From positions 1 through 24,598 of IMG/VR virus record IMGVR_UViG_3300017963_001791: 24,598 nt of DNA; one strand, 5' to 3'. The notes under the pieces were generated by a model. That model worked only from the letters and a program-made list of their open reading frames with translations, had not been told where the DNA came from and ran no database searches. Below, in pieces: positions 1 to 24,598 of the stretch. The position numbers and the translations under genes were made by a program. Each line of letters starts with the position of its first letter. Position 1 is the stretch's first letter. This DNA comes from a virus.

Positions 1-1
1 C

Positions 2-1630
2 GCACGGATTCCGGCCTTGTGCCCTGGTGCCGCTTTAAAGATAACTAAAACTGTGAACATTGAAGAGGTTCGATTGATTCCGCAAATTCAAATAGGTTCT
101 CCGGATGATGAATACGTCGTAAGGAGAGCCTTTTATATTGGCGGTGAACTGGAAACGAACATCACTTACAAAATCAAAGCTCGCGTTGTTCCTGAACCAA
201 AGACACAGTATGCTACGCTCCTTATGTATGACGCCGAGGCATCCCTTGACTCCTTAGCTTGCTTTGAGCTAACTCCGAGAATGAAGAAAGAACTAGATAT
301 TTTTAAACCAGATGACTGGACTGAAGATGCTATCAATAGAAAGCTCGATCAACTCTATTTGGATCTAGAAGCGAACGTGACAAGAATCTATCAAAGAGGT
401 TCGCTCCATTTGTTCTACGATCTGATTTACCATTCAGTTCTCTATCTTCCATTTCAAGGACGACGAATCAAAGGATGGGCTGAAGGGTTGGTACTCGGTG
501 ATTCTGGGCAAGGGAAATCAGAGTGCGTTTCCAGATTAAAGGATCACTATGGGCTTGGAGAAAAAATTGACGCGAAAGGTGCATCAGTAGCCGGCTTGAT
601 CGGAGGGCTCCAGGAAGTTTCAAAAAGATGGTTCGTGACTTGGGGTGTGATTACGTTGAATGACCAACGACTCGTAATTCTTGAAGAAGTCAAGGGCCTT
701 TCAACAGAGATCATCGGAAAATTGACAGAAACTAGGTCGAGTGGAATCGCGGAAGTTTCAAAAGTTGAGAAGGCCCGAACAAATGCACGAACAAGATTAT
801 TGTGGATTTCAAACCCACGAACCGACAAGAAGTTGCTGGCCTACAATTATGGGGTTGAGGCAGTTAAAGAGTTGATTGGATCTTTGGAGGACATTCGAAG
901 ATTTGACATGGCTATCTTGGTAGCAAGTGGTGAAGTTTCAAAATCCATGATAAATATCAGCGATGCGGATCGACCAAAGTCGGATCATACGCATACTTCA
1001 GAGCTTTGTAAAAATTTGATTTTATGGGGCTGGTCAAGAAAGATAGATCAAATAAAATTCGAAGATGATGCAGTTACAGAGATCCTGGAAACTGCGTCGC
1101 AGATGGGAGCCACCTATGTGTCAAATATCCCCTTAGTAGAGGCCGCGGATCAAAGACTTAAAATAGCGAGGCTCGCAAGTGCGCTTGCAGTGCGAACTTT
1201 CTCGACCGATAAGGATGGAGTAACCCTGATCATAAGAAGATGCCACGTTGAATTTGTTTCGAAGTTCTTAAATGCTATCTATTCAAATGATGTCATGGGC
1301 TATTATGATTACTCAAGAATGATAAAGAGCGAAACAGAACTTAGGGATAGCGATGAAATTATTTCGAAGTTGAAGGAACTTCCTTATGCTAAGGATGTGG
1401 TAAAGTCTATGTTGGAGTCCGCGACTTTCACTCATTTTGATTTAAGCGATTGGACTGACATGTCGCTGGACCAAACTAGAGTGATTATGGGAATCTTCGT
1501 AAGGAAAAATGCGGTCAAAAAAGCACGGCGTGGGTATTCGAAGACACCCGCATTTATAGCCTTGCTCAAAATGTTAGATCGCAGTGATGAATTGACTAAT
1601 GAAGGGATGGAGGAAGATGATGAAATCTAA
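2..1630 (+). CDS. MCM-like AAA+ replicative helicase, 5' end cut by window
   Basis: Probable phage replicative DNA helicase of the MCM-like AAA+ class. Counting from the TTG at 17, the P-loop GDSGQGKS is at residues 161-168, a Walker B-like LVILEE at 219-224, a sensor-1-like WISNP around 263-267, and an arginine-finger-like IRRFD at 293-297, matching the SRFD of MCM proteins. The usual MCM Walker B DE is EE here. The frame stays open upstream to base 2 with a CPG motif near the edge, so the gene probably starts outside the window and the TTG is only the first possible in-window start. The N-terminal part is OB-fold-like by position only. The C-terminal 100 residues could be a winged helix. 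It heads the + strand gene string and its stop overlaps the next start. AAA+ assignment is firm; MCM subclass is likely. Confidence 0.75.
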   Translation, partial: ARIPALCPGAALKITKTVNIEEVRLIPQIQIGSPDDEYVVRRAFYIGGELETNITYKIKARVVPEPKTQYATLLMYDAEASLDSLACFELTPRMKKELDIFKPDDWTEDAINRKLDQLYLDLEANVTRIYQRGSLHLFYDLIYHSVLYLPFQGRRIKGWAEGLVLGDSGQGKSECVSRLKDHYGLGEKIDAKGASVAGLIGGLQEVSKRWFVTWGVITLNDQRLVILEEVKGLSTEIIGKLTETRSSGIAEVSKVEKARTNARTRLLWISNPRTDKKLLAYNYGVEAVKELIGSLEDIRRFDMAILVASGEVSKSMINISDADRPKSDHTHTSELCKNLILWGWSRKIDQIKFEDDAVTEILETASQMGATYVSNIPLVEAADQRLKIARLASALAVRTFSTDKDGVTLIIRRCHVEFVSKFLNAIYSNDVMGYYDYSRMIKSETELRDSDEIISKLKELPYAKDVVKSMLESATFTHFDLSDWTDMSLDQTRVIMGIFVRKNAVKKARRGYSKTPAFIALLKMLDRSDELTNEGMEEDDEI

Positions 1631-2618
1631 ATTGACTCTTGTAAGTTTGGACAATAACTATATCTATAATTATATTCAAACTTGGAAGGGTCTACATAAA
1701 ATAAAAAATCAAGGATTAAAGGCTATAAGTATTTATAGGGAATTTGAAAGACGGGGATTCGAATGCTCCTGTGTAACCCAACAAAATATTGACTCAATAA
1801 AAGATGGTCTGGTTTTGATAAAAGGCGGATTCTATTTTAAACAGCAGCAGGACTCGTTGATCAAACTTGGAAAGCTCGGAAGCACGCATCCTGTGCGGCT
1901 CTTAACGATTGATGAGGATGATTTGAGAATTGATTTCAGGAAATTATTTATGTACCATCCGGAAACAATAAAGAATTTTGGAATTCTTACAAATCAATTT
2001 TATCCGATGTACTATGTGAATAGGGATTACCCGGAAGCTGAATTTAGATATGTGTTGCAAAGTAGCTATGCTAATCTAGAATGGATTAATCTCGTACAAG
2101 ATCCTGGAGCTTCCTTCGATTTCTGCTATGTTGGTGATAGAAAGTCCAGAAGATTTAGAGTTCTAAAAGATCTTGGAATTACGGATATGGAAAACATAGT
2201 ATTTGTAGGGGCAAAATGGAACGAATATCCTGTTTATGCTTATAGGGAATTCACCTACCCAATTGACCTTTTGAATATGTTTAGATTGGGAGCCTTTCAA
2301 ATTCATATAACTGATCATAGATGGCATCATTTTCACTACATGACTCCAAGGGTGGCCCAGTCAATTTATGCAAGCCGCCTTGTAATGATCCATGAAAGTC
2401 AAATCGCTACAACGCCCGATCTACCCGTAGATGATCGATTCGTTTGGAAAACTTTAAAAGAACTAAAAGAAAAAGTAAAGTCAATATCTAGGTATCATAC
2501 CTATCACAAACTTTTAGATTTCCAAAGGGAGCATTACCTTGGTGAATATTTTAAGGAATCAGTTTCAAGTGTAGTCAACAGAATAATTGAGGAGGAATTA
2601 AAATGCGATATATCTTAG
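1620..2618 (+). CDS. GT-B-like glycosyltransferase candidate (CgeB/YkvP-like)
   Basis: About 332 aa. No strict catalytic motif is visible, but the second half has a GT-B-like pattern: a YVGDRKSRRFRVLKDLG strand-helix about residue 168 on, a FVGAKW strand, then PIDLLNMFRLGAFQIHIT and a TPRVAQSIYASRLVMIHE stretch that resembles the donor-site helix (R..E..A.G..V) of CgeB/YkvP-type glycosyltransferases. ATG codons at 1599, 1617 and 1620 are in frame; GGAGG at 1609-1613 has the best spacing to 1620, so that start is chosen. It overlaps the stop of the helicase gene by 11 bases and is followed immediately by the flavoprotein-dUTPase gene. In a phage nucleotide-modification context it could glycosylate a modified base, but that is inference; it may be another GT-B-fold enzyme. 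Confidence 0.5.
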   Translation: MKSKLTLVSLDNNYIYNYIQTWKGLHKIKNQGLKAISIYREFERRGFECSCVTQQNIDSIKDGLVLIKGGFYFKQQQDSLIKLGKLGSTHPVRLLTIDEDDLRIDFRKLFMYHPETIKNFGILTNQFYPMYYVNRDYPEAEFRYVLQSSYANLEWINLVQDPGASFDFCYVGDRKSRRFRVLKDLGITDMENIVFVGAKWNEYPVYAYREFTYPIDLLNMFRLGAFQIHITDHRWHHFHYMTPRVAQSIYASRLVMIHESQIATTPDLPVDDRFVWKTLKELKEKVKSISRYHTYHKLLDFQREHYLGEYFKESVSSVVNRIIEEELKCDIS

Positions 2619-3817
2619 GAGGCGGTCTTAATGGACTAATCATGGCTTATTATAATCCTGATTTTAAAGTCATTGATATCAAACCACCAAAAGCAAAAGA
2701 CCATTGGACTCCAGAAACGCGGGACGTTATGGTTCAACTCCATGATACTAAGGAGAACAGAATCCTGTTGGATGATCTCAAGATCGCTTATAGTCCGAAG
2801 GTCCGCGACATCAAATATTTCTTCAATGGTAAAATATATGATTCGTGTCCGGAGCCATTGGTAACAGAATATGTTCTAAAGAAACTCGGAAACAATAAAC
2901 ACATGCTGACCGAAGATAGAACTTTGACCCAAGCTTCTTCAAGATTTAAAGTTCTGAATTGCAATCTTGAAACCGTGTACCGGGTATTGCGGAAAAGTGT
3001 AGAAGATAGAATTATTGAGTGTGACAATATTAATGGAATAAAGTCCAGTCACATTGTAGTCGATAGGGGAACTGCATATTCCTATGAGCTTTTAGTTAGT
3101 ACACTTCCGGCTCCGGTGTTTTGGGAAAAGTGGGCAGGGGTAAAACCTGACAAACTTGAATTAGAATTTTTGTCCTCAACTTTTCTTGTAGAAAAAGAAC
3201 CTCCGGGAGGAGTATCAAAAGATGATGATTTTGGACTCATGTATTTTGTAGATGATAGGCCTTATCATCGCGTTTCACATATGTCACCAGATAAATATAT
3301 TTACGAGTTTACTGGAATACACGAAACTTTTCCAAATTCCTCCATTCAGCGTTTAGCGCAATTCAAAACCTGCCCTCATAATGTACCGCCACCGAATGTT
3401 CTGTTTGCCGGGCGGGTTGCGACTTGGAGGCATTGGTGGAAAATTGAGCACACGGTTAAGATGGCAAGATCCCGATTTGCACTTGAGCAGATGTGGAATA
3501 GGCAGGCCTTCTTTGAAACTCACTTCTTAGATTTCGATCGGCCAACATCGGAACTGATCGGCGATACCATATACTTCATAACCTGTGTTCAAGAAGAACT
3601 ACACGAGATGCTTCGTGAGTTGAACTGGAAAAAGTGGAAGGATCAAAAGATAAAAGTTGATAGGGAAAGAGTTCTTGAAGAGTACATCGATGCCTTTAAA
3701 TTTCTATTGTCAATAGGATCCTTATGGGGATTCTCAATAGAAGAAATAAGTGATATGTTTCATAAAAAATCAAAGAAAGTAGAGGAGGAATTTTTCGATG
3801 GCGAGTTATTGGGATAG
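2603..3817 (+). CDS. FAD/NAD(P)-binding oxidoreductase fused to all-alpha dUTPase-like domain
   Basis: A 404-aa two-domain protein. Residues 1-300 look like a flavin amine-oxidase/UDP-galactopyranose-mutase-like Rossmann protein: GGGLNGL dinucleotide-binding loop at 6-12, VSTLP at 165-169, and LFAGRVATWRHWWKIEHTVK at 267-286, which matches the C-terminal FAD-binding GR..EWRY...D motif of that group. Residues about 310-398 look like a dimeric all-alpha dUTPase/MazG-type pyrophosphatase: metal-binding EELHE at 331-335 and EEYID at 359-363, with WKKWKDQ between. Such domains hydrolyse dUTP to dUMP. ATG at 2603 has GGAGGAA just upstream and overlaps the previous gene. Its neighbours (methyltransferase, ThyX-like, TS-like, kinase-like) point to thymidylate or modified-pyrimidine metabolism. 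The substrate of the flavoprotein half is unknown. The single reading frame is continuous, so this is a true fusion unless the assembly is wrong. Confidence 0.65.
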   Translation: MRYILGGGLNGLIMAYYNPDFKVIDIKPPKAKDHWTPETRDVMVQLHDTKENRILLDDLKIAYSPKVRDIKYFFNGKIYDSCPEPLVTEYVLKKLGNNKHMLTEDRTLTQASSRFKVLNCNLETVYRVLRKSVEDRIIECDNINGIKSSHIVVDRGTAYSYELLVSTLPAPVFWEKWAGVKPDKLELEFLSSTFLVEKEPPGGVSKDDDFGLMYFVDDRPYHRVSHMSPDKYIYEFTGIHETFPNSSIQRLAQFKTCPHNVPPPNVLFAGRVATWRHWWKIEHTVKMARSRFALEQMWNRQAFFETHFLDFDRPTSELIGDTIYFITCVQEELHEMLRELNWKKWKDQKIKVDRERVLEEYIDAFKFLLSIGSLWGFSIEEISDMFHKKSKKVEEEFFDGELLG

Positions 3818-4298
3818 AAGAAAAACTTTGGATTATTACAAAGTGGCTAAGGAGTTCGTTATGGAGTTCTGCGAAGACTTCGGAGATCTTCTGGATGTAG
3901 GTGGCGGACAATGCGAGTATATTTATGAACTACCCTTCGTAAGTAAACTCGTTCTTGATCCAAATCCTAAAGTCAACCATTTCGATCAAGCGGAAACCAT
4001 TCATGAAGAATTTATGGACTGGGATCCTACAACAATCTTCGACTGCGTTATGTGCCTTCAGGTGCTCGAGCATGTGCCCGATCCATCGGCGTTTGCGGCG
4101 AAGTTACTTTCAATTGGAAAGATCATTGTTGTTTCAGTGCCATATGAATGGCCAGATGGATTATGCTCAGAGCATATTCAAGATCCGGTTTCTGAGGAAG
4201 ACATGGAAACCTGGTTCGGTAAAATTCCAATCGCCTCAATAATTGTTCGCGGAAGAAAGCGACACCGGCTTGTCCAGGTGTATGAAGGGAATATGTAA
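3798..4298 (+). CDS. Class I SAM-dependent methyltransferase
   Basis: 166-aa compact Rossmann methyltransferase. Motif I LLDVGGGQCEY is at residues 31-41, motif II-like LVLDPNP at 51-57, and the FDCVMCLQVLEHVPDP block at 81-96 is typical of motif IV/post-IV in the Methyltransf_11/25 group. There is no target-recognition domain and no DPPY or PC motif, so this is not a classic DNA base methyltransferase; a small-molecule or nucleotide substrate is more likely. A good GGAGGAA site precedes ATG 3798, and the gene overlaps the preceding stop by 20 bases; its own stop TAA overlaps the next ATG. Its place inside the deoxypyrimidine gene string suggests it modifies a nucleotide or its intermediate, which is inference. 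Confidence 0.7.
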   Translation: MASYWDRRKTLDYYKVAKEFVMEFCEDFGDLLDVGGGQCEYIYELPFVSKLVLDPNPKVNHFDQAETIHEEFMDWDPTTIFDCVMCLQVLEHVPDPSAFAAKLLSIGKIIVVSVPYEWPDGLCSEHIQDPVSEEDMETWFGKIPIASIIVRGRKRHRLVQVYEGNM

Positions 4299-5242
4299 TG
4301 TTTAGAAACCGCTTTGGAGAAACACCGAGAACAAAAATAATAAATCTCGAAAAAGCTATGAAGGTTAATGTACGATGTCCCGATCGACATGAAATTCTTC
4401 CAAGGCTAAGGAGATTTATTGGGGCCACGTGGGCAGATACAATCGCGGAAGCTGCGACTATGGGCGAAGAAGAAATGCTTTACCGTGGATCCGCGTTGTG
4501 GCAGGGTCTTGAACTTTTTGACTTCTTTATAGAAGTTGAAGGAATCACAAGAATATTGACCCATCAAATAGTCCGCACCAGGATCGGAGCTACGTATAGT
4601 CAGCAGTGTTCCGGCGACGCTGATTGGAGGCATCACGATCTCCTTATGCCGAGAAAAATTTTCCAGATGGGACTTGGTGAAGAATATATTTTAAACTCAT
4701 TGACCAACAAATTCTTATACGCCAAGGCCATCGACACAAAGAAAATTTCTATTCAGGAAGCTAGGCTGATCCTTCCGCAGAACCTGTCTACCTTCATAAT
4801 GATGAAAATGAATCTTGCCGCCCTAGCTCCATGGGTGAGAAAAAGATCCTGCTCCATGACACAGGATATGTCAATGGTTCGCTTGGCAGTTGAAATTAAA
4901 AATCAGGTAATCGCTTCATGGCCGGAACTGGAGCCGCTTTTAGCGGATGAGTGTTCTTCTGGAAAATGTTTCTGGACTCAGTCAATGCTGAGAAAAGACT
5001 ACAATGCCCATACCACGTTATACGCTCCTGATACTCAACACATACATGCTCTTATGGAAAATTCTGAGTACGGAGAAGAAATCATTTCCCATATACGAGA
5101 GCGTGTTCAGGTATATAATGATTTCCATAGCGTAATGGTCAACGGAGTATGTAATATGGAATCCGGAAAATATGAAACCCATGACCGCTTTTTCATCGGC
5201 ATGGTAGAAGTGGGGGAGAAAGAATGGAACGCGAAGTCCTAA
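4298..5242 (+). CDS. thyX: Divergent flavin-dependent thymidylate synthase (ThyX family)
   Basis: 314 aa, longer than usual ThyX (about 220-250 aa). ThyX makes dTMP from dUMP using FAD, NADPH and methylene-tetrahydrofolate. The core FFIEVEGITRILTHQIVRTR (residues 76-95) matches the conserved ThyX helix ending in RHR. Here the signature RHRX7S reads RTRIGATYSQQC (93-104): the central His is Thr and there appears to be one extra residue before the SQQ. The C-terminal 100 residues (CSSGKCFWTQS onward) are an extension not typical of the family. ATG 4298 overlaps the methyltransferase stop (ATGTAATG), implying translational coupling; ATG 4358 is an alternative start. The changed signature could mean altered chemistry, for example another 5-substitution of dUMP. 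Confidence 0.7.
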   Translation: MFRNRFGETPRTKIINLEKAMKVNVRCPDRHEILPRLRRFIGATWADTIAEAATMGEEEMLYRGSALWQGLELFDFFIEVEGITRILTHQIVRTRIGATYSQQCSGDADWRHHDLLMPRKIFQMGLGEEYILNSLTNKFLYAKAIDTKKISIQEARLILPQNLSTFIMMKMNLAALAPWVRKRSCSMTQDMSMVRLAVEIKNQVIASWPELEPLLADECSSGKCFWTQSMLRKDYNAHTTLYAPDTQHIHALMENSEYGEEIISHIRERVQVYNDFHSVMVNGVCNMESGKYETHDRFFIGMVEVGEKEWNAKS

Positions 5243-5748
5243 TAGACCTTAAACTAAAGGCTTTATTCCACTCTTGCCGAAGTCAAGATATCAGGATAAC
5301 CAGAGGGAAAAAATATTCGGAGTTAAAAACTTCAGCAATATTTCCACAAAGTGGAGCATGGGCTGAAAATGAACTTCCTGGAAACCTTGATTTCTTATTT
5401 GATGAGATTATTAAGGAGTGGGGAAAAGAAACTCTTGATCTAATATTGTCCTATAAGGAAAAAATAATAGAGGATCCCTTTCGTAGAGATCTTGTAATAC
5501 TATGTCCTGATGTACGGAATCCAGGCGTACATGCGTCGTGCATATCAATGATCCATTTATTACAAACGCCCTACGGAGTATGGAATGTAAAAGTATATTG
5601 GAGATCGTGCAATTTTGAAACTTATATAAGACGCGATCTAGCCTTGGTAATGAGAATTGTAGAGTTCATACTTTTATTAGTCCAGGATGAGGAAAGAAAG
5701 ATCCACTTACACTGCGAGTGGGCCTCACTACATAAGGAGATCAAGTAA
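5224..5748 (+). CDS. Short, divergent thymidylate synthase/deoxypyrimidine hydroxymethylase (ThyA) superfamily protein
   Basis: 174 aa against about 264 for ThyA. Low overall similarity, but the order of landmarks fits the family: DPFRR at 84-88 (ThyA DPxxRR phosphate-binding arginines), then an ILCPDVRNPGVHASC stretch ending in Cys106 in the place of the catalytic ALAPCH Cys, then VKVYWRSCN at 122-130 matching the ThyA YQRSCD motif, and a long helix. The usual LPFN after RSCD is absent, and the C-terminal dUMP-binding HxY is only weakly echoed by IHLHCEW. Family members transfer a one-carbon unit to C5 of dUMP or dCMP, giving dTMP or 5-hydroxymethyl nucleotides. The start ATG 5224 follows a GGGGGAG site and overlaps the ThyX-like gene by 19 bases; the stop overlaps the next start. 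Whether it is active cannot be told. Confidence 0.55.
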   Translation: MEREVLIDLKLKALFHSCRSQDIRITRGKKYSELKTSAIFPQSGAWAENELPGNLDFLFDEIIKEWGKETLDLILSYKEKIIEDPFRRDLVILCPDVRNPGVHASCISMIHLLQTPYGVWNVKVYWRSCNFETYIRRDLALVMRIVEFILLLVQDEERKIHLHCEWASLHKEIK

Positions 5749-6674
5749 TGATTATTTTAGAAGGTCCTAATGGAGCGGGAAAAACAACCGAAGCTTACAA
5801 ACTTTCAAAAATTCTCAATTGGGGATATCATTATAATAGGGAAAGGGAAACTAGGGAGAGACTATTTGCTAGATCTGAAGACCAAGTTTCTACAAGGAAA
5901 AGAATCGTTGATCGTAATTGGATCTCCGAAGCGGTGTATAGAGTTATTGAGCATAGGAGTGTAAGATTCTCAATAGAGGAACTATACTATCTAAGTCTCC
6001 TTAGTCTACGTGGTACTACTTGGATCATAGTTCCAGATTTTGAAACTATATCCAATAGGGTAGATTACCCTATAAAGGGAATCGGGAAATTAGATCATAA
6101 ACTAGTCCACAAAATATACTCTGAGGGCCTCAAGAGTAAAGTTGAGCTAATAGACGGCCGAACTGTGCGTATTTTAGACTTCGTTCCTTTCAAAATGACT
6201 ACAACCGGAATTCCTAATGAAGAATCTCGTAGGGTAATTTCTATGCTAGCATTGAATCAATCTAAGCTATGGGATATCTATGAATGTATGGGCGGATCCG
6301 GAATCGGCGCAATATCTCCAGAAATTTTGTTTCTTACAGATAACGACAGATTAAATGGGGAAGGTTCACTTTCGAACTTACTTAGGGATATCTATCGCGT
6401 AGGATTAGGTCCGGATCAAGTTCATATTTTAAACTATAGTGGTAGAGGAGTACATGGATTACATGAATGTATAAAACAATTGAATCCTAGATTAGTAGTT
6501 CTTTGTTCTGAATTAAATATTAATAACTATTTGAATTACTATAAATACACAGGGAAGGCCGAGATTTGTGATCATGTAATTCTTGGATCAACAAAAGATC
6601 CGGAGATTAAAGTTAAGGAGATTCAGGATGCTGTTAAACACCGTTGCATACCTACCCCAATTTCCAAAAGATGA
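5748..6674 (+). CDS. Thymidylate-kinase-like P-loop protein with extra C-terminal domain
   Basis: 308 aa. Residues 1-150 look like a dTMP-kinase-type P-loop fold: GPNGAGKTT at 6-14, VDRNWISEAVYR at 54-65 matching the DRxxxS..AYQ motif, and a WIIVPDFETISNR strand-helix. It should phosphorylate a (deoxy)nucleoside monophosphate, or possibly a base in DNA as 5-hydroxymethyluridine DNA kinases do. Residues about 155-300 form a second domain with alternating strands (EILFLTDND, QVHILNYSG, RLVVLCSEL) and a conserved-looking GEGSLSNLLRD helix; this pattern loosely recalls uracil-DNA-glycosylase-type folds but is not diagnostic. AAGGAG lies 7-12 bases before ATG 5748. The gene overlaps the polymerase start by 47 bases. 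Confidence 0.55.
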   Translation: MIILEGPNGAGKTTEAYKLSKILNWGYHYNRERETRERLFARSEDQVSTRKRIVDRNWISEAVYRVIEHRSVRFSIEELYYLSLLSLRGTTWIIVPDFETISNRVDYPIKGIGKLDHKLVHKIYSEGLKSKVELIDGRTVRILDFVPFKMTTTGIPNEESRRVISMLALNQSKLWDIYECMGGSGIGAISPEILFLTDNDRLNGEGSLSNLLRDIYRVGLGPDQVHILNYSGRGVHGLHECIKQLNPRLVVLCSELNINNYLNYYKYTGKAEICDHVILGSTKDPEIKVKEIQDAVKHRCIPTPISKR

Positions 6675-8580
6675 ACCGCTGGTTGTAGATGTTGAAACTA
6701 CATCTTTCGATAAAGAAGAGAAAGCGTTCAAGCCCTTTAACGGGCACAGAATCGCAGGTGTAGCGATTGGAACTGTTGATGGAAAACAACAATGGTACCT
6801 TCCACTGCGTCATCATTCTGGAGTCGAGAAAAATGAAAATATAAATCTCGAAGTTGGATTACGCTGGTTTAAGGATGTGATGGAATCCGGACGAGATATT
6901 ATAAATCATAACATAAAGTTCGACGGAAGATTTTGGCACCAAGATGGGATCACTGTAAAAGGTGAACTTAAAGATACGATGGTGTTAGCCCGGTTAGTAC
7001 ATAATAGACTGCCAGCTTATAATCTTGACTACTTGTCAAAAGCTTTCTGCGGAATAGATTCCGGCAAAGATAACACGGTTAAAGCCTACTGCAAATCTAT
7101 AAAGTCAAAAGACTACGGTGACGCACCGGCTTCAATGATGGGCAAGTATGCAGAACGAGATGTTAAAATAACTGCAGATTTGTATAACGCTCTCAGCCGG
7201 AAACTACCCGATATCTCTAAGGAGATATGGGAGATCGAGTATAAGTTGACCAAACACCTCCTCGAAAGTGAAATCATCGGAGTCCCCTTAGATATTCAAA
7301 GGCTTAAAACTTCTTACAGAGATGCACTTAGGGATCTTCTTATGGTCCATGAACAAATAAACGAGATAGCTGGAGAAGAAACTGATCCCATGAGTAATAC
7401 GTATTTGTCAAAATTGCTTACTGGAAAATTCGGGATCAAGCCTAAGGCGTTCACCAAAACTGGAAAGGCTCAATGGAACAAGATGGCCTTTGAAACGCTG
7501 GACCATCCGATTGGTAAACCACTTGCACGATATAAAGATATTGATCATTTCATTTCTGCATACTGTAAAGGTTGGATTACGAGGGTTGGAGAGGATGGTA
7601 GATTGCACGCAGATTTTTGGCAGTCAGGAACAAAGACAAGTAGGCTTTCCTGTCATGATCCTAATTTGCAGAACGTCCCTCTGGAAGCCGAAATCCACGT
7701 ACGAGTTGATGAGGAAACTTATGGACTTGTAATGGCAGATTATTCCCAAATGGAATACAGGATTTTTGGACACTATACAAAAGACGAAGCTATACTTGGC
7801 GAGTACAATAAAAATCCTTATATGGATTTCCACGGTCATCTAGCTGGTATGCTGGGAGTTGATAGGCAGTTTGCAAAACAATTAAATTTCTCGTTCATTT
7901 ATGGAATGGGAAAGAAAAAGTTGATTGCTAACTTGGCCGGACTAATAGCGTTGAAGGCCGGCGATGATAAAGAGATGGCAGAAAGAATGCGGACTTATTT
8001 AACTGGTGCTGGAACTGCAACTGCTCAGAGGGCCAAGCAGCTGGATTTGTCCGAAACTACACAGCTTGCGGAAAAAGTTTATGCAGATTATCACAGGAAA
8101 TTTCCATCGATTAGACAATTTCAAACTAAAGTCAACGACGCGGTAAAGCGGAGAGGTTGGGTTAAAAACTGGTTTGGCCGACGTTATGTATTTGAACCGG
8201 GGTCTCCAGTTCACCAAGCTGTGAATTATTTAATTCAGGGTTCCGCTGCGGATTGTTTTAAAACCCGACTCGTTTCATTATTCAGGGAAGTAATTCCAAA
8301 TTACCCTGGTGTATCGTTGTTAACTCAAGTCCATGACTCAGTTATTTTTATGGTCCCTAAGGAGATGATGGTAGACTTCGCAATCGACATGCAGAAGTGT
8401 TTAGAGGATACTCCGATGTTTCGAGTTCCCATGTTGGCGGATATAAAAGTTGCTAACGAGTACTGGTCGCAGGGATTTGAAATTGAAGCAAGGCCTGAGT
8501 TAGTTGGAGAAAAACAATTCAGGACTGCAATACAAGAAGGCATAGAGAAATCAAAATCTCAAACGGTTCGCGGATGGTAA
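6628..8580 (+). CDS. polA: Family A DNA polymerase with 3'-5' exonuclease domain
   Basis: 650-aa phage replicative polymerase of the Pol I (family A) type. Counting from ATG 6628: exonuclease Exo I VDVETT with D21/E23, Exo II NHNIKFDG with D99, and Exo III YAERDVKIT at 174-182; polymerase motif A DYSQMEYRI 371-379 (metal-binding D371), motif B from R413 to G426 with K417, F421 and Y425 as in Pol I R...K...F...YG, and motif C QVHDS 567-571 (metal-binding D570). The 5'-nuclease domain is absent. An upstream in-frame ATG exists at 6583, but AAGGAG at 6615-6620 fits ATG 6628. The stop TAA lies inside the first copy of a 39-bp direct repeat. As the last gene of the nucleotide cassette it would be the enzyme that incorporates any modified dNTP. 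Confidence 0.93.
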   Translation: MLLNTVAYLPQFPKDEPLVVDVETTSFDKEEKAFKPFNGHRIAGVAIGTVDGKQQWYLPLRHHSGVEKNENINLEVGLRWFKDVMESGRDIINHNIKFDGRFWHQDGITVKGELKDTMVLARLVHNRLPAYNLDYLSKAFCGIDSGKDNTVKAYCKSIKSKDYGDAPASMMGKYAERDVKITADLYNALSRKLPDISKEIWEIEYKLTKHLLESEIIGVPLDIQRLKTSYRDALRDLLMVHEQINEIAGEETDPMSNTYLSKLLTGKFGIKPKAFTKTGKAQWNKMAFETLDHPIGKPLARYKDIDHFISAYCKGWITRVGEDGRLHADFWQSGTKTSRLSCHDPNLQNVPLEAEIHVRVDEETYGLVMADYSQMEYRIFGHYTKDEAILGEYNKNPYMDFHGHLAGMLGVDRQFAKQLNFSFIYGMGKKKLIANLAGLIALKAGDDKEMAERMRTYLTGAGTATAQRAKQLDLSETTQLAEKVYADYHRKFPSIRQFQTKVNDAVKRRGWVKNWFGRRYVFEPGSPVHQAVNYLIQGSAADCFKTRLVSLFREVIPNYPGVSLLTQVHDSVIFMVPKEMMVDFAIDMQKCLEDTPMFRVPMLADIKVANEYWSQGFEIEARPELVGEKQFRTAIQEGIEKSKSQTVRGW

Positions 8581-9413: not shown

Positions 9414-9854
9414 ATGGCGAAAAAAGAAAAAGCGGCAAAAGTGGAAAACACGGAAAACACGGAAAACTTGGACGAGAAAATCAAGGCGGAAAAAGCAGCG
9501 GAAAAAGCTGAAATTTCAGCGAGAAGAAAAATCACGAAAACTCAGCAAGAAAACCTGGATGCAGCACTAAATAAAATGCAGGAGGCCTCGGACATCCTGG
9601 AGGCGGCAAGCTTGATGATTAATCTCGATGAAGTTGCGAATGATCATCCTTCCTACAGAATCTGGAAAAAACTTGGAAAAACTGCGAACTCCCTGGACAG
9701 CGTTTTCAACAAATTCCATAGCAGCAAAAAAGGAAAACTTTCCGCGGCGGCAAAAACTCGCAAACTGGAGAAACTGCGGGCCCAGGAAAAAGCATTGCTT
9801 GAGGAACTCGAAGCTGAGGGAATTTCCCTTGACGATCTAAACACCGAAATTTAG
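9414..9854 (+). CDS. Lys/Glu/Ala-rich coiled-coil protein, function unknown
   Basis: 146 aa, preceded by AGAAGGAGAT (9399-9408). Very rich in K, E and A. The N-terminal 50 residues are low-complexity (including a repeated ENT triplet), then a helical middle (NLDAALNKMQEASDILEAAS), and a C-terminal coiled coil KLEKLRAQEKALLEELEAEG (residues about 118-137) followed by ISLDDL. The C-terminal helix resembles those of the 9923 and 10821 gene products. It lies directly downstream of the hammerhead, so its message would begin with the 5'-OH product of cleavage. No enzyme motif is visible. It may be a phage accessory protein that binds nucleic acid or oligomerises; this is inference. Confidence 0.75.
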   Translation: MAKKEKAAKVENTENTENLDEKIKAEKAAEKAEISARRKITKTQQENLDAALNKMQEASDILEAASLMINLDEVANDHPSYRIWKKLGKTANSLDSVFNKFHSSKKGKLSAAAKTRKLEKLRAQEKALLEELEAEGISLDDLNTEI

Positions 9855-9909
9855 AATTCTTAATCCGGGAGCCTCCTTAGCAGGGGGCTTCCACTTAAGA
9901 ATTTTAAAT
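9849..9909 (+). other. Long imperfect intergenic stem-loop
   Basis: A 15-bp outer stem (9849-9863 with 9895-9909, one G-T wobble), a small internal loop (TCC against AC), and a 10-bp inner stem (9867-9876 with 9883-9892, with two G-T pairs) closed by a 6-base loop. The structure spans the stop codon of the 146-aa gene and ends before the AGGAG of the next gene. There is no U-run after it, so it is not a typical rho-independent terminator. An mRNA processing or stabilising element is more likely. Confidence 0.65.
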
Positions 9910-9922
9910 ACAGGAGAGCATG

Positions 9923-10210
9923 ATGTCAATAGAAATAGAAAAAGAAAAATTGCGGAAAGCCCGTGCTGTAGCACACTTCGAGTTCATGGAAGCATACGCA
10001 CGAGTTGAAGAACTCGAGAGAGATCTAGAAAATCTCAAAATAGCAATCCCGAAAGCGCAGGCGGCTATGCTGCGGTTTAAGCGCAAGCGGAACGAACTAG
10101 ACGCCGAATGGGAAGCTAAGGATTACGATAATTTGGAGAAGCTTGCCAAAATTGAAAAGGTGAAAAGGATTAAAGCCCAGTTAGCGAAGCTTGAAGCTGA
10201 ATTGGAATAG
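9923..10210 (+). CDS. Small coiled-coil protein, function unknown
   Basis: 95 aa, almost entirely predicted helix with heptad-like spacing: ARVEELERDLENLKIAIPKA in the first half and KRIKAQLAKLEAELE at the C-terminus. Two ATG codons are adjacent (9920, 9923); the AGGAG at 9912-9916 has better spacing to the second. The protein is highly charged, without Cys and without membrane segments. Its C-terminal KL..L.ELE helix resembles those of the 9414 and 10821 products. The stop TAG lies inside the first copy of the 66-bp tandem repeat. It is part of the small-gene module behind the 9069-9096 promoter. Function cannot be assigned. Confidence 0.7.
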   Translation: MSIEIEKEKLRKARAVAHFEFMEAYARVEELERDLENLKIAIPKAQAAMLRFKRKRNELDAEWEAKDYDNLEKLAKIEKVKRIKAQLAKLEAELE

Positions 10211-10341
10211 TGTAATCTAAATTACAATGTAATCTACATTACAATTTTGTCAGGTGCAGATTACTGCACTAAATAGTGTAATCTAAATTACAATGTAATC
10301 TACATTACAATTTTGTCAGGTGCAGATTACTGCACTAAATA
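10206..10341. repeat. Two-copy tandem repeat, 66-bp unit
   Basis: Two exact tandem copies (10206-10271 and 10272-10337, identity running on to 10341). Each holds TGTAATCTAAATTACA, TGTAATCTACATTACA, TTTTGTCAGG and the dyad GTGCAGATTACTGCAC. The first copy starts at the stop codon of the 9923 gene, as the 8577 repeat starts at the polymerase stop. Confidence 0.95.
10211..10309. promoter_or_regulatory. Second cluster of TGTAAT-type dyad sites
   Basis: Four sites: 10211-10226, 10228-10243, 10277-10292 and 10294-10309. All keep perfect TGTAAT/ATTACA halves with 4 bases between. Within each pair starts are 17 bases apart. Each repeat unit also has a promoter-like TTGTCA and, 17 bases on, TAAATA, with the dyad GTGCAGATTACTGCAC (10254-10269, 10320-10335) exactly filling the spacer. 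That arrangement resembles an operator inside a promoter; the -10 match is weak. Confidence 0.65.
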
Positions 10342-10360
10342 TTTATAGAAAGGAAATGAA

Positions 10361-10576
10361 ATGGGAAAAGAAATGAAAAAATCGGAGTTGGAGAAATTTA
10401 AAGCCATGATCTCGGAGCCGGAAATGCGCACTATATGCGAAGCTATAGCAAGCTTGGAAAAAACACACGCTGTAGTAGCGATCCTGAAAGCGACTGAGTG
10501 CCGTCTCGGCGAGGCGGCGGCGATCATGCGTAGCATTAAAAGAGATATGGCGCTTGCTCGCCGAGGTGAAAAATGA
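10361..10576 (+). CDS. Small helical protein, function unknown
   Basis: 71 aa, with AAAGGAAA before ATG 10361 and immediately downstream of the second dyad cluster, so probably controlled by it. The sequence is mainly helical (KKSELEKFKAMISEPEMRTI, then ASLEKTHAVVAILKATECRL) with a basic C-terminus MALARRGEK. One alternating stretch, AVVAILK, could be amphipathic but is too short for a membrane span. Its stop TGA overlaps the ATG of the next gene in an ATGA, which implies translational coupling. It is rich in GC-ending codons compared with the metabolic genes at the left of the window. No family is recognised. Confidence 0.65.
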   Translation: MGKEMKKSELEKFKAMISEPEMRTICEAIASLEKTHAVVAILKATECRLGEAAAIMRSIKRDMALARRGEK

Positions 10577-10770
10577 AATTTAAAATTTACAGGAATGAAA
10601 GTTATCTAGAATTCATCAATTTGAGAATAAAAAGATTCTGGATTGAATTGAGATTTAGATCGGCGGAAGATGGCATTACACGGCATCTTAATATAACTGC
10701 TATTTTACAGCAGACTTGCTCAACCTTAAGGAAAACGTTGTTTTCAATTACTCTGTATGGACAGGAATAA
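10573..10770 (+). CDS. Small hypothetical protein
   Basis: 65 aa, starting in the ATGA overlap with the preceding gene. It begins MKFKIYRNESYLEFINLRIK and is mixed alpha/beta in look, basic, with an aromatic-rich IKRFWIELRFR stretch and one Cys. Codon use is more AT-rich than its neighbours. No recognised domain. Support rests on the coupled start and on the fact that it fills the gap before the next ribosome binding site; it could be spurious. Confidence 0.5.
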   Translation: MKFKIYRNESYLEFINLRIKRFWIELRFRSAEDGITRHLNITAILQQTCSTLRKTLFSITLYGQE

Positions 10771-10820
10771 GCGACTTACTGGCGTAACCAGTTTATTATA
10801 TTTCACGAAGGAGACAAACT

Positions 10821-11228
10821 ATGGGAATGGATGACAAGACAAAGAAGGCAATGGCAGCAGCGGAAAAAGCGAAGGCTCGCGAGGCGGCTAAGGAAGCGGC
10901 TAAGGCCGTACGTGAGAAAAACAAAGCCGATAAAAAGAAGGAAGCTGAAACCCGCGAACCGGTTACTGAGGTTCCGGAGTTCAGGGATGCAGCTGGAAAC
11001 CTGTTCAAGTACACCCGCCGGGATTTCCCGAAGTCCAAAGAGGGCTCCTTGGGCTGGTGCGATTACCAGATCCAGAACTGGACTGAGCGGAAAAAGCAGG
11101 TTGAACTCAGAGGCGATCCCAAGAAAAGGAAACTCGACAAACTGCAGAAACTCAGGGAACAGCTGGCCGAGCTCGAGAAGGAACTCGGCGGCGAAGATAT
11201 TCCCGAAGCCGAAGGAGACGGCGAATAG
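10821..11228 (+). CDS. Lys/Ala-rich N-terminus, coiled-coil C-terminus protein, function unknown
   Basis: 135 aa, with AAGGAGAC before ATG 10821. Residues 1-50 are a highly charged Ala/Lys/Glu helix (AAAEKAKAREAAKEAAKAV). A folded-looking central part follows (RDAAGNLFKYTRRDFPKS then SLGWCDYQIQNWTERKK), then a C-terminal coiled coil KLDKLQKLREQLAELEKELG. The C-terminal helix resembles those of the 9414 and 9923 products, so these may share an interaction surface. A longer open frame at 10831-11397 is rejected as a shadow. The GC content is higher than in the metabolic genes. A stem-loop follows the gene. No function can be assigned. Confidence 0.7.
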   Translation: MGMDDKTKKAMAAAEKAKAREAAKEAAKAVREKNKADKKKEAETREPVTEVPEFRDAAGNLFKYTRRDFPKSKEGSLGWCDYQIQNWTERKKQVELRGDPKKRKLDKLQKLREQLAELEKELGGEDIPEAEGDGE

Positions 11229-20654: not shown

Positions 20655-22109
20655 TTAAACCTCCTCACCAGGAACAAATACTCCCATAGTAATTGTTTTC
20701 CTGGAGCTATCACTTAACACATCCTTGTCAGCATAAAGATCCATGGTCTTATTCATATCATCTGTGAAAATAATATCCTGCAAAGTCTTGATTGTGAAAT
20801 CAGAAACAAGAACAATTCCGGTTTTCCTTCTTTGAATTGCGAGTTCAATCATATTAGAAGTTGCTCGTCTACAAATTCCTACTATTCCATCTGGAGCAGT
20901 TTCCGGAGTCCACACCTTATTGGTATAAGTATTGATTATGCTAGTCGCTTCGAGAATCCACTTCTCAATTAAAGCCTCAAAGCCAGCGTTGTCATTCGCC
21001 TCAAAGTCAAGATCTTTTGGAAGAGCCCCGGTAGTTTGCAATACGTCCATAACGCCGCATAGCCCGATCCCGTAATCATTATTTTGAAAAGCCCCTATAT
21101 CAATCCGACCTAGTCCTCTAATGACTCCATCGCCGTCATGTTCGCTTACAGTGCGGCCATTAGCGATCGCTGGGCTGTCAAAGCTTACGCTTAAATTAAT
21201 TGTTGGGTCAATAAAAAGCGGATCAAGGTCTAAGGAGTTCTCATCCTGATTGTACTCGCCTTGCCAATCCGCGAGTGTGTCCAGATCAACATCCCCTTCC
21301 ACGAATTTCCCGACTTTGAAAAGGTTAACATCAGAATCTAAAATTCTTAAATCGCTGAAAGCCACACTGGTCTCCATGTCAAGGAGAAGATCGCACTCGA
21401 TTATATTATTCCTTAGAATTCCAAGTTCGAGTTTAGCTCCGGCTTCGATGTTGGCCAGCGACGCTTTCCCTGTGCCGGAATCTGTGCGATAAATAGAGTT
21501 GTTAACAAAGTGAAGTATTCCAGAGTTAACAACCGTGGCATCAACTTCAATGACTGGAGAATCTACTCCTGATCCTGTGTAAAATATTTCACAACCCTTT
21601 ACAAGTATCTCTCCGGAAGTGTCGTCGATCAGCGTATTATAGCGAAACACTTTCTGAGTTTTTATTGTGCAATTTTCTACGGTCATAACGTTGGCATCAT
21701 TTACCCACATTGCATATTCTCGACCATCCTCAAATATACAATTCTTTAAAATCCATCCGGTCCTAATTGCAATACCAGATATGATCAAGTAGGACAATGC
21801 TCCAGTAGAATTCCAGTTATTGAACTTAATCCCATCAACGGTAACAAAACTTTCTGCATCAACAGCCCCGTTACCGGATATCAATTGTGAGAATTCGACG
21901 ACATCAGTCTCATTGAACTTATCAAAAATAAGTCTATTCTTATGGGTAGGGACTAGGTCCGGGGTGTTCTGTTGTCCATATTGGCCGGCGGACCCTCGCA
22001 CATAGTGCGGCTCAGCGAAAGGAGTAGACCCAACCGCAGCGAACAAGGCGTCGATAGCCGATTGCGGATCAGCATAAACTTTCCCCGGACCATATTCCCA
22101 TACTGCCAT
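20655..22109 (-). CDS. Right-handed beta-helix fused to head-tail connector domain
   Basis: 484 aa. Residues 1-343 look like a pectate-lyase-type parallel beta-helix: repeated turns such as LKNCIFEDGR, VENCTIKTQK, VKGCEIFYTG, VNNSIYRTD and LRNNIIECD, closing with SPAIANGRT and RGLGRIDIGAFQ. Residues 350-484 look like a gp6-type head-tail connector: VLQTTGALPKDLD, LIEKWILEATSIINTYTNK and GICRRATSNMIELAIQRRK. The connector position after the capsid gene and before the gp10-like gene fits. No lyase catalytic residues can be assigned. The beta-helix would be displayed around the neck. TTAGGAG precedes ATG 22109. Confidence 0.7.
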   Translation of the reverse strand: MAVWEYGPGKVYADPQSAIDALFAAVGSTPFAEPHYVRGSAGQYGQQNTPDLVPTHKNRLIFDKFNETDVVEFSQLISGNGAVDAESFVTVDGIKFNNWNSTGALSYLIISGIAIRTGWILKNCIFEDGREYAMWVNDANVMTVENCTIKTQKVFRYNTLIDDTSGEILVKGCEIFYTGSGVDSPVIEVDATVVNSGILHFVNNSIYRTDSGTGKASLANIEAGAKLELGILRNNIIECDLLLDMETSVAFSDLRILDSDVNLFKVGKFVEGDVDLDTLADWQGEYNQDENSLDLDPLFIDPTINLSVSFDSPAIANGRTVSEHDGDGVIRGLGRIDIGAFQNNDYGIGLCGVMDVLQTTGALPKDLDFEANDNAGFEALIEKWILEATSIINTYTNKVWTPETAPDGIVGICRRATSNMIELAIQRRKTGIVLVSDFTIKTLQDIIFTDDMNKTMDLYADKDVLSDSSRKTITMGVFVPGEEV

Positions 22110-22119
22110 AATTTTTCTC

Positions 22120-22356
22120 CTAAGTTAAAAGATTGAGAAGATCCATCACTCTATCCATTTTCCTGTTTGGAAAGGATCTTGGGTAGTTTGATTTAACGAA
22201 AGTGGATATGATCTCCTCAGCGGTTTTCTTACTTGCCGACTCCGGAATTGTTAACCCAGCGTTCTCTAGTTCAACTATTAACTGGGATACACTAACTGCC
22301 GGAGCAGCAACCGGGTACCCGGAAGTATCCGGGATCAAGCCAACTGGAAAAGCCAT
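22120..22356 (-). CDS. Small hypothetical protein of the head-neck region
   Basis: 78 aa, AAGGAG precedes ATG 22356. It has a Pro/Val-rich start (MAFPVGLIPDTSGYPVAAPA), then two helices, SQLIVELENAGL and KTAEEIISTFVKS, and a basic-then-hydrophobic end (KMDRVMDLLNLLT). No domain recognised. Its place between the capsid and connector genes suggests a structural or assembly role. The start of the protein (MAFPVG) resembles that of the 22368 product (MATYPVG), which may reflect a shared assembly signal or chance. Confidence 0.6.
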   Translation of the reverse strand: MAFPVGLIPDTSGYPVAAPAVSVSQLIVELENAGLTIPESASKKTAEEIISTFVKSNYPRSFPNRKMDRVMDLLNLLT

Positions 22357-22367
22357 TTTCTAACTCC

Positions 22368-22880
22368 TTACGCTGGCCACACCGGCCAGTCCGGCTGTGC
22401 GACCTCAACCCCAATCGTTTCCCAAGAGCTCTCGATCATCCACAGATAAAGATAGATTACACCGGTATCATTTGTGGTGTCATTATTCAAGAACCGAAGG
22501 AAAAGGGACTCCTTAGTTTGAGGAAGGGCTCCCTGGAAAAAATTGAAACATGGAGCACCAACCAAAGGGCTTCCGATATCGAACTTAGGTGGAAGAGCTT
22601 GAACAATCCCAACCTCAGTTATTATTGCCCCTACCGCTTGGGGATCTGGAGCCCAGTTCATGTAAGGAGATACACCCAGCATTAAATCCCAATCTTCGGA
22701 CTCGCATAAAGCGGACAAGCCGACTATATTGCCATCAATGTTTAGTTTTACCGGAATAACCCCTGAATCTTCATCTCCTACCAGAGAGTTATTATATTGA
22801 ATGGCAATTAGATTTAATTCTTGACCGTTCGGCAAGGATTGCTTGAACGCTCTCGATACCCCAACTGGATAAGTTGCCAT
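22368..22880 (-). CDS. Hypothetical virion-region protein
   Basis: 170 aa, strong AAGGAG before ATG 22880. Beta-rich, with GQELNLIAIQYNNSLVG at the start, IPVKLNIDGNIVGLSAL in the middle and VIYLYLWMIESSW near the end, and many Trp and Pro at the C-terminus. Low in Lys and Arg. No known family. Directly downstream of the capsid gene, the usual place of head decoration or fibre proteins, so a capsid decoration role is possible but only by position. Confidence 0.55.
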   Translation of the reverse strand: MATYPVGVSRAFKQSLPNGQELNLIAIQYNNSLVGDEDSGVIPVKLNIDGNIVGLSALCESEDWDLMLGVSPYMNWAPDPQAVGAIITEVGIVQALPPKFDIGSPLVGAPCFNFFQGALPQTKESLFLRFLNNDTTNDTGVIYLYLWMIESSWETIGVEVAQPDWPVWPA

Positions 22881-22902
22881 TTAAAAAATCTCCTTATAAA
22901 TT

Positions 22903-22940
22903 GGGAGGGCGTGTATGAGTAATGGAGGACACGCCCTCCC
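22903..22940 (-). terminator. Perfect 12-bp stem-loop after the capsid gene
   Basis: GGGAGGGCGTGT (22903-22914) faces ACACGCCCTCCC (22929-22940), loop of 14 bases, located between the major capsid stop and the next ribosome binding site. In transcription direction it is followed by AATTTATAA, not a U-run. It could be a weak terminator or an mRNA stabiliser giving more capsid than downstream protein. Confidence 0.6.
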
Positions 22941-22957
22941 AGTGCGACTTACCGCGA

Positions 22958-24163
22958 TTAGCGGATTGTAGCTGTTACCGCAATTTCGGGATTCTCATAA
23001 TTGAAATCCCATTCGCCGTTAAGAATGAAGTCTGTACTCTTGGCCTTGGCTTCACGCTCACGCTCAAGGAACATTTCCATGAACACGCCCCATACAGTAT
23101 TGTTGGGATGTGTCATCCACGCTTTGTTCTTCGGCATTGAAGGAACCATTTCAATCGGTACACCCTTGTATACCAATTTTCCAGCCGAGGTCTGGGCCGA
23201 GTCACCGAGTGCGGTTCCGCGGGCCCTAAGGAGATCACGGTAGGCATCCTCTACCCAGAAGGGGACGTAGATTCTCCACTCGTTCCGGCGAACGAAGTAA
23301 GGAGTATCAGCGATGATCCCGATCTGAAGATCGAACATGTCCTCAGGGAAGTTGTCCCCGTTTTCGTCGAAGGTCTCAGCGGTGTAGGCCACGTCGTAAG
23401 AGGTTGAAGCGGTTAATCCGGTCAAGACAACTTTGCCTTGCTCGTAGTCAATTGTTCCCGCTATTCCGGAAGCCGCATCCTGAACGATATTCCCGGCGCC
23501 GTCATCGTGAGCAACCTGAGTAGAGCTAACCTCAATTATGTAGGTCGAAGGAGTAATCGGGACTCCGTCTTGGCCATGATCCACGGACTGGGTAGTTTCG
23601 CCAACCCCGGTTACGAATTTAGCGGTTAAAGAAACTGAGGCTGCGGCATCTTCCAGCACATACCTTTCCGCAAGTTTCAGCCAGCCGTCGTTGAGAGCGA
23701 ACAAGGGATCCGAAGATCCAACATCGCCGTTGATTCCCCACTCCTCAATATCGAGGCCGCCACGCTCTCCGATCATATCCACGAGAGTGGACTCGAAGTT
23801 CTGCTTCTCGATATTTCTCCTAAGGAGTTTGTCTGTCAGTCGCACGATGGACTGGGCCTCAGTTGATTCCAGATTTATGATTCGCTCAGTGGGAGTCTTG
23901 CCGTCCGTGGCCGGATCCAGAGCCGTTCCCTCCGTTTTGGGAGGTCCTAGAATTCTTCCAACAAACCCGATTCTGTTGATTTCCTCTTTGAAAGCTTCCA
24001 TCAACTGGAACCGAGCAGCGGGTAGAACCACGGTGTTGTTCTGGGCCATGCGAACAAACCGATCCCGCTGTTTGGTGTTCATCAACCCGCCGGGAAGTGT
24101 CCCGGTTGAGGTTATGCTTTTTATGGCCGCGTCGATTTTCGCCAGTATGTCATTATCAGGCAA
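22958..24163 (-). CDS. Major capsid protein (HK97-type fold) with inserted beta-rich module
   Basis: 401 aa. The N-terminal region (NTKQRDRFVRMAQNNTVVLP) is followed by long helices and loops typical of large phage major capsid proteins. Residues about 174-264 are an insert with SVDHGQDGVPITPSTY, TQVAHDDGAGNIVQDAASG and DYEQGKVVLTGLTAST, matched in the tail tube protein. After it the capsid fold resumes with FDLQIGIIADTPYFVRRNEW, YKGVPIEMVPSMP and NNTVWGVFMEMFLERER, typical for the C-terminal half of HK97-fold subunits. It lies directly after the scaffold-like gene and shows a high share of GC-ending codons, as expected of a highly expressed gene. Confidence 0.85.
   Translation of the reverse strand: MPDNDILAKIDAAIKSITSTGTLPGGLMNTKQRDRFVRMAQNNTVVLPAARFQLMEAFKEEINRIGFVGRILGPPKTEGTALDPATDGKTPTERIINLESTEAQSIVRLTDKLLRRNIEKQNFESTLVDMIGERGGLDIEEWGINGDVGSSDPLFALNDGWLKLAERYVLEDAAASVSLTAKFVTGVGETTQSVDHGQDGVPITPSTYIIEVSSTQVAHDDGAGNIVQDAASGIAGTIDYEQGKVVLTGLTASTSYDVAYTAETFDENGDNFPEDMFDLQIGIIADTPYFVRRNEWRIYVPFWVEDAYRDLLRARGTALGDSAQTSAGKLVYKGVPIEMVPSMPKNKAWMTHPNNTVWGVFMEMFLEREREAKAKSTDFILNGEWDFNYENPEIAVTATIR
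23378..23557 (-). other. Inserted beta-rich domain shared with tail tube protein (capsid copy)
   Basis: Codes for capsid residues about 203-262. STQVAHDDGAGNIVQDA and ASGIAGTIDY align with the tail-tube insert. Known phage structural proteins often carry small DDG.GN-type beta modules; a role as a surface decoration is inferred. Confidence 0.8.
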
Positions 24164-24165
24164 AA

Positions 24166-24588
24166 TTAGTTCCCTCCTCTATTGATTGCGCACCCGAAAA
24201 GATCGCGGTCGGGAGCGTTTGAAGTTCTCGATTTGAAGGCCGGCTCCTCATTGTCATTTGAGTCCTGCCCCGGAAGGGACCGTGACTTGGTGGCCGCATC
24301 GAGTTTACTGGAAAGTTTCTCGAGCTGTTCTTTGACTGCCGCAAGTTCGGATTCTGAGCCGTCTTCCGATTTTTTCGCAGAGGGATCCTCTTCCTTTTTT
24401 GGATCCTCTTCCTTTTTCTTGGGCGGGTCCTCTTCCTTTTTCTCAGGAGGATCAGCCGCCTTCATTGACGCCTGCATCGCATCCACTTTTTCCGTGACAC
24501 TCTTGATTGATTCACCTAATCCGGCGACCGGCTCAAGAGCAGTTTTGATCGCTTCATTCACGATCGCTTTGACATCTTCTTCTTTCAT
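24166..24588 (-). CDS. Scaffold-like, charged helical head protein
   Basis: 140 aa, GGAGGA at the window edge before ATG 24588. It opens with a helical stretch (VKAIVNEAIKTALEPVAGLG), has a low-complexity middle with repeated KKEEDPP-type units (residues about 50-75), then a coiled coil (AVKEQLEKLSSKLDAATKS) and a basic C-terminus. Position just before the major capsid gene and the helical charged composition fit a capsid scaffold or capsid-directing protein. No protease triad is present. The repeats make its length likely to vary between relatives. Confidence 0.65.
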   Translation of the reverse strand: MKEEDVKAIVNEAIKTALEPVAGLGESIKSVTEKVDAMQASMKAADPPEKKEEDPPKKKEEDPKKEEDPSAKKSEDGSESELAAVKEQLEKLSSKLDAATKSRSLPGQDSNDNEEPAFKSRTSNAPDRDLFGCAINRGGN

Positions 24589-24598
24589 TTCATCCTCC

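Follow-up and report, generated by a model that had tools for sequence, protein, structure and literature searches.

The window, a 24,598-nucleotide virus fragment deposited in IMG/VR (record IMGVR_UViG_3300017963_001791, positions 1 to 24,598), carries a gap-free series of genes between the end of a primase/MCM-type helicase gene and a family A DNA polymerase gene. At positions 1599-8580, overlapping genes encode, in order, a weakly matching glycosyltransferase (GT)-like protein, a flavoprotein fused to a nucleoside triphosphate (NTP) pyrophosphatase, an S-adenosylmethionine (SAM) methyltransferase, an altered ThyX, a tiny protein of the ThyA or thymidylate synthase (TS) family, a kinase-like protein, and PolA. 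The best explanation for this cassette, and one towards which we lean slightly, is that it makes a pyrimidine deoxynucleotide modified at C5 and supplies it to the phage polymerase; the broader claim, that it feeds a modified pyrimidine into DNA, we consider likely. Support comes from the gene order in two other contigs (L004 and L002), the catalytic residues of the TS-family protein together with an Asp at position 177 of the E. coli numbering, fold and profile matches, the failure of the altered ThyX to reach its equivalog cut-off and the second ThyX found in some relatives, the proximity of flavoprotein and ThyX in 16/16 loci, and published restriction resistance. The features are as follows.

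2..1630, + strand: C-terminal part of a primase/MCM-type helicase (Pfam MCM, 1.3e-6; phrog_18685, 7.5e-84)
1599..2618, + strand: possible GT-B-like glycosyltransferase, accessory (sub-threshold Pfam match of the L004 homologue; alignment A7, 31%)
2603..3817, + strand: FAD protein of the UDP-galactopyranose-mutase/amine-oxidase fold (about residues 1-290) with an all-alpha dUTPase/dCTPase-type NTP pyrophosphatase (about 300-400) (Pfam, predicted model, Foldseek, profile)
3798..4298, + strand: SAM methyltransferase, accessory (Methyltransf_23, 9.4e-9; homologue in L004, absent in L002)
4298..5242, + strand: altered ThyX, with RxR kept and the His of RHR and the SxR motif replaced (RTRIGATYSQQCSGD) (Thy1 match, alignments)
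5224..5748, + strand: short TS-family protein of about 174 residues, with catalytic residues R88, C106, R127-S128, and H170, and Asp138 at the E. coli N177 position (fold and profile)
5748..6674, + strand: P-loop kinase, dTMP-kinase-like, with a C-terminal domain that is possibly like uracil-DNA glycosylase (UDG) (phrog_761, 2.2e-6; YorR 2axp, E 1.3e-3)
6583..8580, + strand: family A DNA polymerase with 3'-5' exonuclease (Pfam DNA_pol_A, 3.3e-58; DNA_pol_A_exo1, 1.1e-10)

Conservation of the cassette

Each of these open reading frames (ORFs) overlaps the next, as a first-pass annotation of this DNA had described, and a search for the same order elsewhere was successful. In the independent contig L004 the order is identical, with both the GT-like and the methyltransferase gene in place, while L002 keeps the order without these two. 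Both genes thus appear to be accessory, and the core consists of the flavoprotein-pyrophosphatase, ThyX, the TS-like protein, the kinase, and the polymerase. Because the same order is found in separate contigs across which the better-conserved proteins share 47-56% identity (56% for PolA of the window and L002), the cassette is not a product of chance. The replication genes that flank it on both sides are related to those of Manatee Spring phage MW202657, where the stretch bounded by this gene pair holds the genes of an NTP pyrophosphatase and a full-length TS-family protein, a kinase-like ORF, and the gene of a dCMP deaminase. A dCMP deaminase was not detected in the window or in L013, a contig that overlaps it. 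Single-sequence IMG/VR searches with the ThyX, TS-like, and kinase proteins found nothing, and their relatives there were recovered only from alignment-based searches, and neither the TS-like nor the GT-like protein matched anything in phages by direct tblastn.

The altered ThyX, its flavoprotein neighbor, and the TS-family protein

The ThyX of the window, the only one detected in the window and L013, passes the Pfam Thy1 cut-off (9.5e-15; 55.3 bits against 24.8) and falls below that of the NCBIfam thyX equivalog (37.4 against 87.9 bits). It shares with canonical ThyX the Thy1 fold, RxR, and equivalents of the conserved R147 and R174. Other residues take the place of the RHR His, of SxR, and of the histidines in the conserved N-terminal motif. 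The canonical RHRxxSxNxxSxR motif is absent and the sequence at that place is RTRIGATYSQQCSGD; in the branch of the window, the central His and SxR give way to QQC[ST]GD, and both RHR arginines are retained. Two relatives, G005 and G008, encode a second ThyX besides the altered one, scoring much higher (170 and 128 bits), and that of G008 retains RHR and SxR.

The pyrophosphatase half of the fusion matches Pfam dUTPase_2 over residues 325-391 (6.9e-9; 36.6 bits against a cut-off of 22.9). A predicted model of the flavoprotein half (pLDDT 87.6, pTM 0.82) matched UDP-galactopyranose mutase (UGM) and amine oxidases in Foldseek, with 4dsg at 2e-11, and a profile search with the fusion detected UGM at 1e-3 and dUTPases at 2e-4. 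Our results thus agree with the earlier call of a flavoprotein-dUTPase fusion. The FAD fold is common to the window flavoprotein, UGM, and amine oxidases, but the former is only marginally similar to them in sequence, is fused to a pyrophosphatase, and shows no evidence of a sugar substrate. The Pfam GLF cut-off was not reached by the family members tested: the window protein has no GLF match and the L028 homologue scores 17.0 against 26.3 bits. A UGM-like gene at L029:3806-4864 was considered as a further member and lies outside the family by hidden Markov model (HMM).

In each of the 16 loci with enough flanking sequence, no more than 3 kb separates a relative of the flavoprotein from a ThyX. 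Given this conserved proximity, it is quite probable that the flavoprotein and the altered ThyX form one functional pair. The loci include cultured phages, namely Pbunavirus, Pantoea phage Kyle, and Serratia phage MTx; for Pbunavirus, the FAD homologue was detected at E 4e-4 by HMM and, in Pseudomonas phage PA5, at E 5e-10 by fold. Geobacillus phage GR1 encodes a related ThyX along with a TS-like protein and a dUTPase. The literature searched, of which coverage was limited, did not yield a description of the flavoprotein-ThyX pair, and this core has apparently gone unrecognized in common Pseudomonas phages. The same module is present in a metagenome-assembled genome (MAG) of Candidatus Shapirobacteria (L032, JALHFY010000002.1). 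A similar arrangement was seen in L006, a contig classed as viral that has no obvious structural genes and may be bacterial.

The window TS-like protein has no direct database match, and none to PF00303; the first-pass annotation, which had proposed a divergent ThyA-family protein, is borne out through the profile matches of its relatives and through its fold. The PF00303 matches of the L028 and L024 relatives (28.6 and 24.8 bits) pass the cut-off of 24.3. The eight-sequence profile A10 matched TS structures in the PDB with a best value of 2.7e-7, whereas the two-sequence A2 profile had no match there. The best match of A10 was 1njc, an L. casei TS in whose sequence the 177 place is occupied by Asp (33.9 bits, against 29.6 for 1lca). 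A fold search with the predicted model placed T4 dCMP hydroxymethylase first (1.4e-5), followed by two recent dCMP hydroxylases, one of them crystallized with FAD. R88, C106, R127-S128, and H170, the equivalents of the phosphate Arg, Cys146, Arg166-Ser167, and His207 of E. coli TS, are invariant in eight sequences; in GR1, the phosphate arginine is aligned one column off.

Mutagenesis and a metagenomic association study have linked Asp177 to cytosine and Asn177 to uracil (PMC8670742, PMC6400193, PMC5175136), and uracil enzymes, SPO1 dUH among them, have Asn at this position (PMC5175136). All nine TS-like proteins have Asp there (D138 in the window) and a residue other than His at position 147, as does the Manatee phage TS. 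The window protein thus carries the signature of the dCMP-specific TS branch and lacks that of the dUMP hydroxymethylases of 5-hydroxymethyluracil phages, and we consider it fairly likely that it acts on dCMP. The chain stops a few residues past the His207 position, and those of the dCMP hydroxylases, placed through an alignment with the Manatee TS, end about ten residues past that region. As the two ends roughly coincide, a flavin rather than a folate route is possible.

Proposed route and competing explanations

In the favored scheme, the NTP pyrophosphatase would deplete the pool of dCTP and/or dUTP, with the monophosphate as product. Cys106 of the TS-family protein would then attack C6 of dCMP, with a hydroxyl or hydroxymethyl group added at C5; the altered ThyX and the flavoprotein, paired by their proximity, may perform the second C5 step, flavin-dependent and with either dUMP or the first product as substrate. 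The kinase would raise the product towards the triphosphate for incorporation by PolA, and in some members the last changes to the base may be the work of the GT-like protein and the methyltransferase. Uracil or MBD4-like glycosylases, present in relatives, would strip uracil-type bases from new DNA.

The overall logic resembles T4-type cytosine modification (gp56 dCTPase/dUTPase, gp42, gp1 kinase, and glucosyltransferases), with which the cassette shares an all-alpha NTP pyrophosphatase, an Asp-type TS-family enzyme, a kinase, a polymerase, and possibly a GT. The component parts do not: the window TS-like protein is far shorter and a distant relative at most, the pyrophosphatase is fused to a flavoprotein, and an altered ThyX and the UGM-fold protein are added. 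The RB69-like 5-hydroxy-dCMP synthase and the dCMP hydroxylases of PDB 9iqc (with FAD) and 9iqu have in common with it the TS fold, dCMP, a flavin context, and no long C-terminal tail, whereas the window enzyme has only about 174 residues and a separate flavoprotein and ThyX. The 5-hydroxymethyluracil-derived hypermodification of SPO1, M6, and ViI follows the same logic of a pre-modified nucleotide and finishing enzymes. It differs in that the window TS-like protein has the cytosine-type residue and the DNA-level pyridoxal phosphate (PLP), radical-SAM, and pyrophosphorylase enzymes were not recognized in the cassette. The first-pass annotation had proposed a cassette for a hypermodified deoxyuridine; a cassette for a modified pyrimidine nucleotide fits, and the deoxyuridine or 5-hydroxymethyluracil-like part was not secured, given Asp177 and the absence of recognizable M6/ViI genes. 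A uracil substrate for the altered ThyX and flavoprotein is nevertheless possible.

An indirect hint on virion DNA comes from Pbunavirus. In a 16-enzyme digest, the DNA of two Pbunaviruses resisted ten and seven enzymes, and MspI, HpaII, and HindIII cut (PMC11945000). In two sequenced Pbunavirus genomes, which are not those of the exact phages digested, sites are absent for just two and four of the enzymes listed; missing sites therefore cannot account for all of the resistance. SacII cuts another PB1-like phage (PMC3008698), and EcoRI, HindIII, and XbaI served for mapping in a Pbunavirus study. No known modified base of Pbunavirus was found in the literature searched. Sites for SmaI, XhoI, BamHI, and KpnI are strongly depleted in LN610579 and MT118303 (0-2 against about 20-30 expected), a possible signature of restriction avoidance, and those for EcoRI and EcoRV are enriched.

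Glycosylases travel with the module in several relatives. Free UDG-superfamily proteins lie beside it in L006, L009, L010, and L032, and a UDG-superfamily domain forms the C-terminus of DNA polymerase III alpha in L023:2-3454, L027:14205-18752, and L030:6252-10046 (3e-20 to 1e-23). The polymerase subunits of L023 and L027 also bear an intein signature. In L024:11108-11965, an MBD4-like helix-hairpin-helix glycosylase (7.5e-10 to MBD4) is fused to a TS-like domain with the cytosine-type Asp. The UDG and MBD4-like folds both include removers of uracil-type bases; their presence suits a system in which DNA must be kept free of uracil or deaminated bases, and does not distinguish cytosine from uracil chemistry.

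Several points weigh against the favored scheme. Confidence in the TS-like model is low to modest (pLDDT 64.5), and the very short chain may be missing folate-binding parts. The GT-B assignment is weak (L004 homologue, Glyco_trans_1_2, E 0.0096, 16.3 bits against a cut-off of 25), as is that of the window kinase (Thymidylate_kin, 15.1 against 27; TIGR00041, 18.8 against 83). The virion-DNA evidence consists of indirect restriction data for Pbunavirus only. The uracil glycosylases, the dUTPase-type domain, and ThyX also point to uracil chemistry. Finally, the module of the Shapirobacteria MAG (G007) holds the sole ThyX found there and no ThyA was found, which fits a role in thymidylate synthesis.

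These last points bear on two alternatives. If thymine were replaced, the altered ThyX and the flavoprotein would modify dUMP, the modified dUTP would take the place of part of the dTTP, and glycosylases would remove unmodified uracil. The core without a TS-like protein, a flavoprotein and ThyX often with an NTP pyrophosphatase and a uracil glycosylase, suits such a scheme, as does the cutting of Pbunavirus DNA by MspI and SacII, with C/G-only sites, where other enzymes were resisted. However, HindIII, with T in its site, also cuts, EcoRI and XbaI served for mapping as well, the TS-like protein has the cytosine-type Asp, and the enzymes of the M6/ViI route were not recognized; we therefore regard thymine replacement as unlikely. 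An ordinary or non-canonical supply of thymidylate with avoidance of uracil would need no unusual base: the pyrophosphatase would provide dUMP, ThyX, the TS-like protein, and the flavoprotein would give dTMP, the kinase dTDP, and UDG would strip uracil. Every part has relatives in thymidylate metabolism. In G007, a MAG of uncertain completeness, no ThyX other than that of the module and no ThyA were found, and a ThyX match was found in 33/43 other genomes of its order. The altered motif and failed equivalog cut-off, the second ThyX in G005 and G008, the cytosine-type Asp, and the restriction resistance of Pbunavirus all make this supply role improbable.

A true UGM that makes or remodels a nucleotide sugar, with the GT-like protein glycosylating DNA or capsule and TS and ThyX as unrelated neighbors, would account for the fold of the flavoprotein and the possible GT-B gene next to it. 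It is hard to reconcile with the fusion to a dNTP pyrophosphatase, the proximity to ThyX in each of the 16 loci, the lack of a GT-like homologue beside the flavoprotein in L002, and the unreached GLF cut-off, and we consider it highly improbable. A bolder form of the modified-pyrimidine scheme, which we put forward only tentatively and hold to be somewhat doubtful, is that the flavoprotein and altered ThyX together make up a hitherto undescribed module of two flavoenzymes, present in Pbunavirus and in a candidate-phylum bacterium, through which a new pyrimidine modification is installed with a chemistry known in no phage, and that the window lineage adds a minimal dCMP-type TS.

Should the module modify DNA, widespread phages, including candidates for P. 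aeruginosa therapy, would carry an unrecognized DNA modification that would account for the published resistance to restriction and bear on sequencing, engineering, and restriction-based defense, and a paralogue of ThyX and a flavoprotein of the UGM fold would join the enzymes of nucleotide chemistry. The cultured members, Pbunavirus of Pseudomonas being common laboratory and therapy phages, make the question directly answerable.

Accessory genes and genome setting

The remaining predictions of the first-pass annotation fared variously. Those of a SAM methyltransferase and a DNA polymerase agree with the Pfam matches listed above, and profiles and structure prediction kept both the TS-like and the ThyX-like proteins within their families (TS fold and Thy1 profile). 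The GT-B-like protein retains the sub-threshold match of its L004 homologue and has no credible PDB match, those obtained being judged to be due to chance. The dTMP-kinase-like protein has weak P-loop and dTMP-kinase scores, below the family cut-offs, and the kinase of L006 passes the Thymidylate_kin cut-off (29.2 against 27). The C-terminal half of the window kinase is possibly UDG-like, a weak lead. By comparison with L004, PolA more likely starts at an ATG near 6628 than at 6583.

The helicase, 40% identical to that of MW202657, is complete in L013 as a 940-residue ORF. L013 overlaps both ends of the window (1-4365 and 21715-24598, at 99.98-100% identity), which points to a combined genome of about 37.3 kb; those of relatives G002 and G003 measure 36.9 and 37.8 kb. 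DNA ligase-like and VRR-nuclease-like genes lie 3' of the polymerase, and the structural genes are on the opposite strand. Between polymerase and ligase (9414-11228), several small charged, coiled-coil-like ORFs were seen, with similar ones in L002 and L004. These two contigs also encode, between the helicase and the flavoprotein region, a small cysteine-rich, probably metal-binding protein (L002:5898-6224 and L004:1992-2267) that was not seen there in the window.

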